Shown here in pieces: positions 17,061-45,759 of a DNA stretch of 64,000 bases. Source of the DNA: Alphaproteobacteria bacterium (GTDB lineage: Bacteria; Pseudomonadota; Alphaproteobacteria; Micropepsales; Micropepsaceae). The translations under genes were made by a program, and so were the position numbers. The notes below the pieces were generated by a model. It made no database searches, was not told where the DNA came from, and was given only the letters and a program-made list of their open reading frames with translations. Every line of letters starts with the position of its first letter. Within the stretch, counting starts at the first letter, position 1. The stretch covers positions 1-64,000 of the forward strand of contig CANIHD010000017.1 of NCBI GenBank assembly GCA_947467345.1, given 5' to 3'.

Positions 17061-18113
17061 ATGCCCCAACCCACCTCTGCTGTCCCGATACTGCCCGGCG
17101 TCCTCGCTGCTATCGGGAATACGCCCCTTATCCGCCTGCACGGCGCCTCGGAGCGGACAGGCTGCGAGATCCTGGGCAAGGCCGAGTTCCTGAATCCCGG
17201 ACAGTCCGTGAAGGACCGCGCGGCGCTCTTCATTATTAGGGATGCGATGGAGCGCGGGCTGATCGGCCCCGGGGGCACAATTGTGGAAGGCACCGCCGGC
17301 AATACCGGCGTCGGCCTCGCCATGGTCGGCAATGCGCTTGGCTTGAAATCCGTCATCGTGATTCCGAATACGCAGAGCCAAGAGAAGAAGGACGCGCTCC
17401 GTCTTCTTGGCGCGCAGCTCATCGAGGTGCCTGCCGTCCCCTATAAGAACCCGAATAATTACGTGAAAATTTCCGGACGCATCGCTGACCAACTGAAGAC
17501 GCAACCTGGTGGCGCCGTGTGGGCCAATCAATTCGACAACGTAGCCAATCGCCGTGCTCATATCGAAACCACGGGGCCGGAGATCTGGCGCGACACGGCC
17601 GGTAAAGTTGACGGCTTCACCTGTGCCGTCGGGACCGGCGGCACGCTGGCCGGAATCGCGATTGCCCTCAAAGCCCGCAACCCGAATATCGTCATCGCCG
17701 CCGCCGATCCGATGGGCGCCACCATCTATGATTGGATCAAGAATGGCACGCTGAATGCGACAGGTAGCTCCATCACCGAAGGCATCGGTCAGGGACGCGT
17801 CACCGGCAATCTCGAGGACGCCCCTATCGACGACGCGTTTCAGATTCCCGATGAGGAAGCAGTGCCCATCATATTCGAATTGCTCGAAAAAGAAGGCCTG
17901 TGCCTCGGCGGCTCAAGCGGCATCAATATCGCCGGCGCGATCCGTCTGGCGGAGAAATTGGGACCGGGGCACACGATCGTCACCATCCTCTGCGATTACG
18001 GCACGCGCTATCAGTCCAAGCTCTTCAATGCCGAATTTCTGAGATCCAAAAATCTACCGCTGCCGTCCTGGCTGGCCAATCCGCCGCCCCTTCCGCCGGT
18101 GCCTTTCGAATAA
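17061..18113 (+). CDS. cysK: Cysteine synthase A (O-acetylserine sulfhydrylase)
   Basis: A 350-residue fold-type II PLP enzyme that makes cysteine from O-acetylserine and sulfide in the cytoplasm. The PLP lysine is Lys51 in NPGQSVKDRAA. The asparagine loop EGTAGNTGVGLA and the phosphate-binding GTGGT are present. It carries an extended Pro-rich C-terminus (PPPLPPVPFE). It starts a same-strand run that continues with sseA, a GNAT, a peptide transporter and metC, so the locus looks devoted to sulfur amino acids. The Shine-Dalgarno is weak. Confidence 0.92.
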   Translation: MPQPTSAVPILPGVLAAIGNTPLIRLHGASERTGCEILGKAEFLNPGQSVKDRAALFIIRDAMERGLIGPGGTIVEGTAGNTGVGLAMVGNALGLKSVIVIPNTQSQEKKDALRLLGAQLIEVPAVPYKNPNNYVKISGRIADQLKTQPGGAVWANQFDNVANRRAHIETTGPEIWRDTAGKVDGFTCAVGTGGTLAGIAIALKARNPNIVIAAADPMGATIYDWIKNGTLNATGSSITEGIGQGRVTGNLEDAPIDDAFQIPDEEAVPIIFELLEKEGLCLGGSSGINIAGAIRLAEKLGPGHTIVTILCDYGTRYQSKLFNAEFLRSKNLPLPSWLANPPPLPPVPFE

Positions 18114-33109: not shown

Positions 33110-33526
33110 TCAGCGGACCGCAGGCAGGCCGCCGGCGTCATTGCCCGGCGCGGCGTTCGCCGTGCCCTTCGTGGTGCCGTCGGGGAGCGTAATGATCATG
33201 AACTGGCCGCCGCGCGTCCCGTCGCGCAAGGGGTGAACGAGCGCGCTCACCTTCATGCCGGGTGTCAGCGTGTTCACGCGCCAGCCATCGCGCGCAAGAC
33301 CGGCGGGTCCGCCCATTTCGATGGACCACTGCTCCTCTACGCCTTGCGCGTTCTTGGCCATCATCACGATCCACGAGTGCGGATTGGTCCAGAGGAACTG
33401 CTTCACCGTTCCTTCAAGCTTGACCGTCTTTTCCGCATCGAACATCGCGAAGGAATGGTGGGCGAAAGCCGCGCTGCCGGTGAGACACAGCGCGACAACA
33501 GCAAAGCCCAATGCTGAGAATTTCAT
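33110..33526 (-). CDS. DUF6152 family exported protein
   Basis: A 138-residue periplasmic protein. The signal peptide ends AAFAHH, and the family hallmark follows at once (HHSFAMFDAEKTVKLEGTV, then WTNPHSWI). The two histidines at the mature N-terminus could bind metal; function unknown. GGAG six bases before the ATG at 33526 rules out the longer TTG start. It is the middle gene of the exported-protein run. Confidence 0.8.
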   Translation of the reverse strand: MKFSALGFAVVALCLTGSAAFAHHSFAMFDAEKTVKLEGTVKQFLWTNPHSWIVMMAKNAQGVEEQWSIEMGGPAGLARDGWRVNTLTPGMKVSALVHPLRDGTRGGQFMIITLPDGTTKGTANAAPGNDAGGLPAVR

Positions 33527-43313: not shown

Positions 43314-44720
43314 TTAGCCGGGATTGGGCAGATAGCGGGATTTCACGGGGACTCGCTGCAAAATAGGTTTCAAAAGCTCCGGCCGCACAGCGAAGATCGT
43401 GCCCGCCAGGCCGAAAACAAGGGCCAGCCAGGCGTAAATCGTCGGGCGCGCGATCAGGCGAAACCGCCCATAGACCGTGTCGCCGAGATGGAAAACACCG
43501 TTCTCAAGGGCTGCAACCAGCTGGGCCTCGTCGGAATGCCAATAGCCCCCTTCTTCGGGCATCAGAACCGCCTCGACCGCCCCGGACAGGATAAGCGCCC
43601 CGTCCCCCCTACCGTCCACTTTGAGCATGCCCTGCGGGGTCTTGAGGAAGACAGCCTCGGATCGCAAATCGGGCGCCGGCAGATAGAGCCCGGCCACGCG
43701 GTGTCCCTCTTCCGCTGTCGGCGCTGGCCGCGCATTGCCAATCGGCTCGGTGTTCTGGCGAGGGGGCGCCAATTGATCAAACAGCGAATCATCCAGCACG
43801 CGCCAGAACTCCGGGCCGGCCTCCGCATTGAGCGCGATGAAATAGCCGCGCTTCGCCTCAGGCACGAGAACAAGCCGCGCCTCGATCGTCACCCGATCCA
43901 CAGCATCGCGCCCGTCATATTGCAAGCCGCGCCACCCGCCACGCAGATGCTCCGCCAAAACATAACCCCAGCCGGGAACCGCCTGATGCGGACCGGCATT
44001 GGCGCGAAACATCAACTCCACGGTTTCGGGCGCAAGCACGCGCGCATCCTCGATACCGCCGCCATTGAGCAGTGCCAGAAGCAACCGCCCCATATCGGAT
44101 GCCGAGGTGGAAAACCGCCCGGCTTCGAAGTGGCTGTGAGTCATCCCGAGCGGGAGCAGCACATGCGTTTGCACATAGGCATCGACCGTCTGCCCCGAGA
44201 CATGCGCCAGCAGACGCGCCATGATTGCAGAAGAATGCGGGACTTGGTGCGAAAGCACCTGCGTGACGACGATGCCGCTGAGGCTGGAATCTTCAAGAAC
44301 CTCGCCGACATCGCGCGACGTCAGAAGCTTCGCCTGCTCGATCTGCTGCATCAACGCGATGCCCACCAGCACATCGCCGATGCCGCCGACTGGAAACACG
44401 CTGTCGATATTGACCGGCGCCTTGGTTGCCGGATCCGCAACACCTTCAGCTTTGCGCACCATGATCCGGTCGGAATCAACCGCGATCAGCGCAAGGCCGT
44501 TGATGCGATGGGCGTTTACGAGGCCGCGCACCAAACCATTGGCGTAGTCCTCAACCTGCTGACTTTGCGAACGCACCACCGGCAATGGCGCGATATCGAC
44601 GCTCGTTACGGGCGCCGCGACGGGCGGCAATCCCGCCCCGCCTAAAGGCTCCTGCGCCAAAGCGGAGCCCGCGAACAGCGCGGCAAGAACCAAAGATGCG
44701 CCGAACTTGCCGCGATTCAC
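43314..44720 (-). CDS. Beta-lactamase-fold protein lacking catalytic residues, membrane-anchored
   Basis: A 468-residue exported protein with the class C beta-lactamase/PBP4* fold: a signal peptide, then DSVFPVGGIGDVLVGIALMQ, LLPLGMTHSHF and GWGYVLAEHLRGG. In active members the helix start reads SxxK; here those positions are Gly113 and Asp116. The YxN motif is His162-Ser-Ser164. Both catalytic motifs are lost, so it is predicted to be a pseudoenzyme. The C-terminus has one membrane helix (YAWLALVFGLAGTIFAV). Start is GTG, directly after the DUF3617 stop (TAAGTG), implying coupling. Confidence 0.75.
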   Translation of the reverse strand: MNRGKFGASLVLAALFAGSALAQEPLGGAGLPPVAAPVTSVDIAPLPVVRSQSQQVEDYANGLVRGLVNAHRINGLALIAVDSDRIMVRKAEGVADPATKAPVNIDSVFPVGGIGDVLVGIALMQQIEQAKLLTSRDVGEVLEDSSLSGIVVTQVLSHQVPHSSAIMARLLAHVSGQTVDAYVQTHVLLPLGMTHSHFEAGRFSTSASDMGRLLLALLNGGGIEDARVLAPETVELMFRANAGPHQAVPGWGYVLAEHLRGGWRGLQYDGRDAVDRVTIEARLVLVPEAKRGYFIALNAEAGPEFWRVLDDSLFDQLAPPRQNTEPIGNARPAPTAEEGHRVAGLYLPAPDLRSEAVFLKTPQGMLKVDGRGDGALILSGAVEAVLMPEEGGYWHSDEAQLVAALENGVFHLGDTVYGRFRLIARPTIYAWLALVFGLAGTIFAVRPELLKPILQRVPVKSRYLPNPG

Positions 44721-45215
44721 TTAGGGCTCGACCGGCTTCACACTGCCGCAATTGGGACCTGCATAGGTGCCGTCAATGTCGATGGTCATGGTTCCCGGCG
44801 TGCTGGCCCGTTGCATCGTTATTTTCTGGGTGACATGCGTGTCGGATTCGAAATTCGCCTCGAACGTTCCCGTACCCGCCAACTCGCCAGTGCAACCGAC
44901 GTCGCCGGAAACGCGCCGTCCGGTCACGCGCTGATTCTGAACACGGCAATCCTTATTGGGCGGGGGCGCTTCCGTGCGCGCCGCTTGAGCCGGCGTAATG
45001 CAAACCTAGGTCGTGATGGGTGCGCCGCCCATACCAGGCAGCTTGATTCCCATGGCCTGCATCTGCGCCATCATCTCCGGCGTGATGGCGGGCATACCGG
45101 GCATTTGAATTCTCAAATTGTAATTCCACAGGCCGGGTGTGGTGGCGGCAAAAGCGCTGGAGCCAGCAGAAACAGCGGCAACCAAAAGCCCGCAAAACAA
45201 AACAGAAATTTTCAT
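44721..45215 (-). pseudogene. DUF3617 exported protein interrupted by one in-frame TAG
   Basis: The frame from ATG 45215 (GGAGAG upstream) encodes a signal peptide and the DUF3617 start TTPGLWNYNLRIQMPGMP. It hits TAG at 45008-45006 just after GGAPITT. Beyond that codon the same frame continues without any stop through VCITPAQAARTEAPP, GCTGELAGTGTFEANF and DGTYAGPNCGS to TAA at 44721. Both halves fit the family, where the interrupted position reads like TT(Q/K)VCITP. Either a nonsense mutation or read-through explains it. It abuts the next gene without a gap. Confidence 0.75.
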
Positions 45216-45345
45216 CGAACTCTCCAGGGTTTCAGCCATCGGCACGGCGCGCGAACATGTGCGCAATGGTGGCACGAACGGGGGCGAGGGAGAACCCGCC
45301 AGGGCGCCGGCGCAATACAAAAAATGGGGCGATCCTGCGGGAAAC

Positions 45346-45666
45346 CTAGCCGTTCGCTTCTTCAGAGCACTTTTGGGGCTCTAATTTGAGAAGCGCTTCG
45401 AGCGAAGGCTGAGCCTGCCCGGACGTGAATTGCAGGATCGCCACCTGATCGAGGCGCACGGAGATGAATCCTTCCGGCGTCTTCTGATCGAACTGCACGT
45501 AGAGGCAGCCCTCAACCGCGATTAGCTTTCCCAAAAACGGACCGCCCACACCGGGCACTTGAACGCGCACCGGCGTGTTCATCAGCGCGGTGTTATCGGC
45601 GGCGAGAAGGTTGTCGGTGAGAAGAAAAGATGAAGCCGCCACCAAGACCGCAAGTCGAAGTCTCAT
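45346..45666 (-). CDS. Small exported protein of unknown function
   Basis: A 106-residue protein with a signal peptide (LRLAVLVAASSFLLTDNLLA). Short strands follow (RVQVPGVGGPFLGKLIAVEG, LYVQFD) and a single pair of cysteines (GCLYV, QKCSEE). AAGGGC precedes the ATG. It lies upstream of the DUF3617 gene on the same strand, with a 130-bp gap. No family assigned. Confidence 0.6.
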   Translation of the reverse strand: MRLRLAVLVAASSFLLTDNLLAADNTALMNTPVRVQVPGVGGPFLGKLIAVEGCLYVQFDQKTPEGFISVRLDQVAILQFTSGQAQPSLEALLKLEPQKCSEEANG

Positions 45667-45684
45667 GGCTCTGCCCTTAGTGTT

Positions 45685-45759
45685 TGGTGCGCCCTACGGG
45701 AGTCGAACCCGTCTTGCAAGATTGAAAATCTTGAGTCCTAACCGATAGACGAAGGGCGC
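45685..45759 (-). tRNA. tRNA-Glu (anticodon TTC), CCA encoded
   Basis: On the minus strand the acceptor gcgccct (45759-45753) pairs with agggcgc (45695-45689). The discriminator is A and CCA is encoded at 45687-45685. The anticodon arm caaga-ttttcaa-tcttg gives TTC. Confidence 0.96.

Follow-up and report, generated by a model that had tools for sequence, protein, structure and literature searches.

The DUF3617 gene on the reverse strand of the window (the 64,000-nucleotide stretch of DNA analysed here) matches a curated protein family from end to end and is interrupted once, by an in-frame amber codon; this match is no chance effect. The best reading of the interruption, and in our judgement probably the correct one, is that this accessory gene is present as an ordinary nonsense allele. 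One substitution would have turned a sense codon into a stop, the simplest case being a Gln codon changed from CAG to TAG, and so knocked the gene out: normal RF1 would terminate translation at codon 70, the product made would consist of the export signal and about 45 further residues, and so short a product would be unable to build the fold or the cysteine pairs. Loss would be tolerated because DUF3617 is accessory in the genus. We infer that the TAG base is real and not an error, that no useful amount of DUF3617 protein is read through it, and that the 69-aa product has no activity. In bacterial genes, in-frame stops are frequent, and most of them persist only briefly (Belinky et al. 2021, PMC7918605).

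The interrupted gene and its predicted product

The coordinates of the gene, its parts, and its neighbours are collected in Table 1. The original prediction had described a DUF3617 frame split by a single amber codon, with both halves matching the family and with conserved cysteines after the stop. Exactly one internal stop, a TAG, is present in the 165-codon frame. When read through, the frame matches PF12276 from position 2 to position 106 of the 106-position profile, scoring 58.7 bits (E 1.2e-15), and the post-stop part alone matches with 45.6 bits (1.4e-11); both scores exceed the curated cut-off of 24.5 bits. The claim for the first half was not sustained in the same way: the first 69 codons alone reached no Pfam match, and their assignment comes from a 13-bit extension of the PF12276 match and from alignment to relatives. 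All four conserved cysteines held in common with relatives (C72, C90, C108, C156) do lie after the stop, where the codon pattern stays protein-like in frame. Like other members of the DUF3617 family, the protein has a full-profile match, an N-terminal export signal, a GLW motif and the four cysteines; unlike them, it is interrupted, by the TAG at codon 70.

A whole-genome search for DUF3617, which marks "1 TAG" inside the window gene, found this gene as the sole DUF3617 gene of its own genome. Its best relatives are 20-42% identical to it. A scan of named genomes with a single protein query found nothing, and a literature search for DUF3617 found no paper mentioning the family.

Table 1. Features of the interrupted DUF3617 gene and its surroundings (window coordinates)
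Feature	Position	Strand	Remarks
DUF3617 gene, 165 codons, one internal stop	44721..45215	-	ATG at 45215, TAA at 44723-44721
In-frame TAG, codon 70	45006..45008	-	Relatives' column: Gln in 12/29 (8 CAG, 4 CAA)
Pre-stop part, 69 aa	45009..45215	-	Export signal, first strand and helix of predicted fold
Post-stop part, 94 codons	44724..45005	-	Own PF12276 match; all four conserved cysteines
GGAGAG, plausible ribosome-binding site	45220..45225	-	Few bases 5' of DUF3617 ATG; read from sequence
GTG-started internal frame, 68 aa	44721..44927	-	Post-stop; without export signal
Serine beta-lactamase-like protein (PF00144)	43314..44720	-	Intact; GTG start at 44720
106-aa ORF, apparently exported	45346..45666	-	5' of DUF3617; without Pfam match

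What the stop costs the protein can be read from an AlphaFold2 model of the read-through protein with 16 relatives (mean pLDDT 80, pTM 0.67). In the model DUF3617, a small exported protein, is mostly beta, with seven predicted strands (E28-37, E67-73, E90-98, E101-108, E114-124, E127-136 and E142-153). The stop falls within the second of these, leaving a single strand ahead of it; the other six, and the four cysteines, are at the stop or beyond. A sequence search found no solved relative of DUF3617, and a fold search with the model gave weak matches of beta-barrel or lipocalin-like type, none at E 0.001 or better. Since the pre-stop product has none of the four cysteines and little of the predicted fold, the window gene is almost certainly a null allele.

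Origin, age and setting of the stop

In 12 of the 29 relatives that could be aligned, Gln occupies the column of the TAG; the rest are mixed. The sole alignable copy from a congener (G004, locus L025), which is cut by a contig end, also has Gln there, with the motif VQVCIT against T*VCIT in the window. A single transition, CAG to TAG, would be the simplest, and so the likeliest, origin of the stop. A TAG in the same gene of relatives, which the original prediction had suggested as a check, was seen at this column in none of the 29; a TAG position common to relatives was rejected as a candidate, the in-frame TAG of one relative (G024) lying at another column. The in-frame stops of bacterial genes compiled by Belinky et al. 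(2021, PMC7918605) include a TAG/CAG site in a sulfotransferase family of Paenibacillus. The window gene resembles such cases in having a single TAG, most simply derived from CAG, in a frame that is otherwise intact, and in being expected to be short-lived. It differs from the Paenibacillus case, where the same TAG occurs in several genomes (PMC7918605), in that its TAG was seen once.

The absence of other damage had been taken to indicate a very recent mutation, a conclusion that proved too strong. In a neutral simulation of the window frame with few indels, the chance that it stayed free of further damage was 53% when divergence reached 2% and 22% when it reached 5%; with more indels, the corresponding chances were 26% and 3%. 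Given a 22% chance of a clean frame at 5% divergence with few indels, lack of damage does not imply that the stop is very recent; the clean flanks cap its age, roughly, below about 5-10% neutral divergence.

The next gene does begin at once, as had been pointed out: the GTG of the serine hydrolase gene stands on the base directly after the DUF3617 TAA. The congener G002 retains the order recJ - tRNA-Glu - serine hydrolase - ClpP-like but has no DUF3617 gene within it, and no DUF3617 was seen beside the serine hydrolase in G003 or G006. Because G002 lacks it at the syntenic site, DUF3617 is accessory in the genus and, since the arrangement is not conserved, coupling between DUF3617 and the hydrolase is a local feature at most. 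Lower expression of the hydrolase through loss of this coupling is putative, though possible. The interval from tRNA-Glu to the hydrolase (window 44721-45759) holds the 106-aa ORF and DUF3617, while G002 has other sequence there; it is a variable spot adjoining a tRNA gene. The case suggests that some members of the bacterial family can do without DUF3617 proteins.

Competing explanations

The original prediction left three origins for the stop. Recent mutation and sequencing error both remain, whereas functional read-through is disfavoured by the tRNAs, RF1, the use of TAG as a terminator, the relatives, and the mixture of stops found elsewhere in the genome. If the TAG is a mistake in the consensus, or if assembly picked an allele carried by a minority, the gene would be intact in the living population. 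We regard this as unlikely, but it is the main rival explanation. An error would have an appearance identical to that of a real TAG. The genome is a draft in 25 contigs, and the named records of related genomes are mostly metagenome assemblies. UPF0102, a widely kept gene, also carries an isolated interruption, and one C-to-T change explains its stop and that of DUF3617 alike; C-to-T is the commonest kind of mutation and also of DNA damage. However, the window DUF3617 gene shows no other stops or frameshifts, and interruptions were few in the approximately 84,000 codons aligned to G002, with a similar result in the reverse comparison, so that nothing points to a consensus of low overall quality.

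Read-through of in-frame stop codons has been proposed as frequent in bacteria (PMC7918605). Applied here, low-level near-cognate decoding (for example, by an ordinary tRNA inserting Gln) would yield a reduced but useful dose of the full-length protein. The intact frame after the stop, its conserved cysteines, and its protein-like codon pattern are consistent with this, but a young nonsense allele would show the same codon pattern and, by the few-indel simulation above, would be expected to have an intact frame anyway. TAG occurs at this column in no aligned relative, RF1 is intact (483.7 bits), and the amber suppressor tRNA that was sought, following the original prediction, did not emerge: none of the 37 tRNAs found by a tRNA family search, all with anticodons assigned by ARAGORN, carries a CTA anticodon. 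The assembly is incomplete, with some tRNAs (e.g. those for Ala and Ile) going undetected, and a suppressor tRNA may, formally, lie in an unassembled stretch. Useful read-through is improbable, and no result of the analysis speaks for it over a nonsense allele. A shade more doubtful again is that the TAG acts as a tolerated dosage setting, whereby near-cognate decoding would allow a little full-length DUF3617 to be made and would lower translation into the adjoining serine hydrolase.

We give very little credence to the production of two separate polypeptides by re-initiation after the stop (e.g. at the GTG at 44927). A GTG-started frame of 68 aa is indeed present, but this second piece would be without the export signal, the first strands, and both C72 and C90, which precede the GTG, and no relative has a split gene with two starts.

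Some phages and eukaryotes read TAG as Gln, and pyrrolysine represents another use of the amber codon. The window gene is like such systems in having TAG where many relatives have Gln; it is unlike them in that a suppressor tRNA was not found, RF1 is present, TAG is a regular terminator, and no pyrrolysine enzyme scored above cut-off, the model for pyrrolysyl-tRNA synthetase (PylS) giving sub-cut-off matches only, as in most control genomes. In 141 kb of sampled sequence, 29 of 111 long ORFs terminate in TAG, an approximate figure resting on a mechanical ORF call. When frames were joined over a TAG and searched with Pfam, most proved to be a pair of separate domains, each complete and unrelated to the other (PGK/aldolase, EF-P/inositol phosphatase, DUF3572/ROK, and 5-FTHF cyclo-ligase/YmdB), and TAG is therefore a normal terminator. 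Known bacterial stop reassignments involve UGA (PMC8629427). Wide reassignment of TAG (to Gln) in this organism is thus scarcely credible, even though TAG interrupts two conserved domains in the sampled 38% of the genome, the first of them aligning to Gln: about a quarter of long ORFs end in TAG, joined frames resolve as just described, RF1 is present without a detected CTA tRNA, and another interruption is a TGA. Genome-wide amber recoding was rejected on the tRNA set, RF1, TAG terminator use, joined-frame domains, mixed stops, and PylS.

The case is mainly a matter for annotation, as an automatic pipeline would report either a pair of short genes at this place or no gene. What separates a single amber codon from recoding is which tRNAs are present, the state of the release factor, how TAG is used as a terminator, what relatives have at the column, and which other in-frame stops occur.

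Other interrupted genes in the genome and family

Interruptions elsewhere were surveyed by comparing the open frames of G002 with 0.94 Mb of the window genome (about 84,000 aligned codons) under a best-frame filter; the unfiltered homology survey was dominated by antisense shadow frames. The scope was 38% of the genome and, within it, genes with a Pfam match or a counterpart among the stretches sampled from G002, so that the result is an undercount. A survey by coding potential was insensitive: it missed the window DUF3617 gene and returned mostly neighbouring genes, with equal numbers for TAG, TAA, and TGA.

The Pfam search of frames joined over TAG brought up an N-acylglucosamine 2-epimerase-like gene (PF07221; G000:C2:17519-18841, + strand, L118). 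It has one in-frame TAG at 17756-17758, in the context ...EFQTR*TWAYARAA..., and its frame is otherwise open. In the nearest solved relative, Ser occupies this position. The comparison with G002 gave one further clear case, the UPF0102/YraN gene (G000:C1:144672-145124, - strand, L150), confirmed with PF02021. Its in-frame TGA (144741-144743) lies 23 codons from the end of the gene, where the congener G002 has Arg. Both TAG and TGA thus occur, in few genes; this pattern agrees with nonsense changes arising sporadically, or with consensus errors here and there, but not with an amber code.

Across the family, 96 genomes yielded 73 DUF3617 genes. Apart from the window gene, one of these (G024:C1:143678-144148, - strand, L004/L143; CAMAPL010000001.1) has a single in-frame TAG at a column other than that of the window gene, within a variable loop, and another (G053:C71:108598-109075, - strand) is frameshifted, giving two matches in adjoining frames. 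No stops were seen in DUF3617 copies from other families of the class. As a control, DUF6152, a small secreted family of comparable size, was searched in the same 96 genomes and yielded 0 interrupted genes among about 129 matches; a DUF3617-specific tendency to stops (2 of 73 versus 0 of about 129) was rejected, the numbers being too few to mean anything. DUF6152 itself is encoded in the window at 33206-33484 (- strand) and at 18 further places in the genome. Genomes of the genus carry about 20 copies each, compared with 0-1 in the other genera of the family; this small secreted protein has undergone a lineage-specific expansion.
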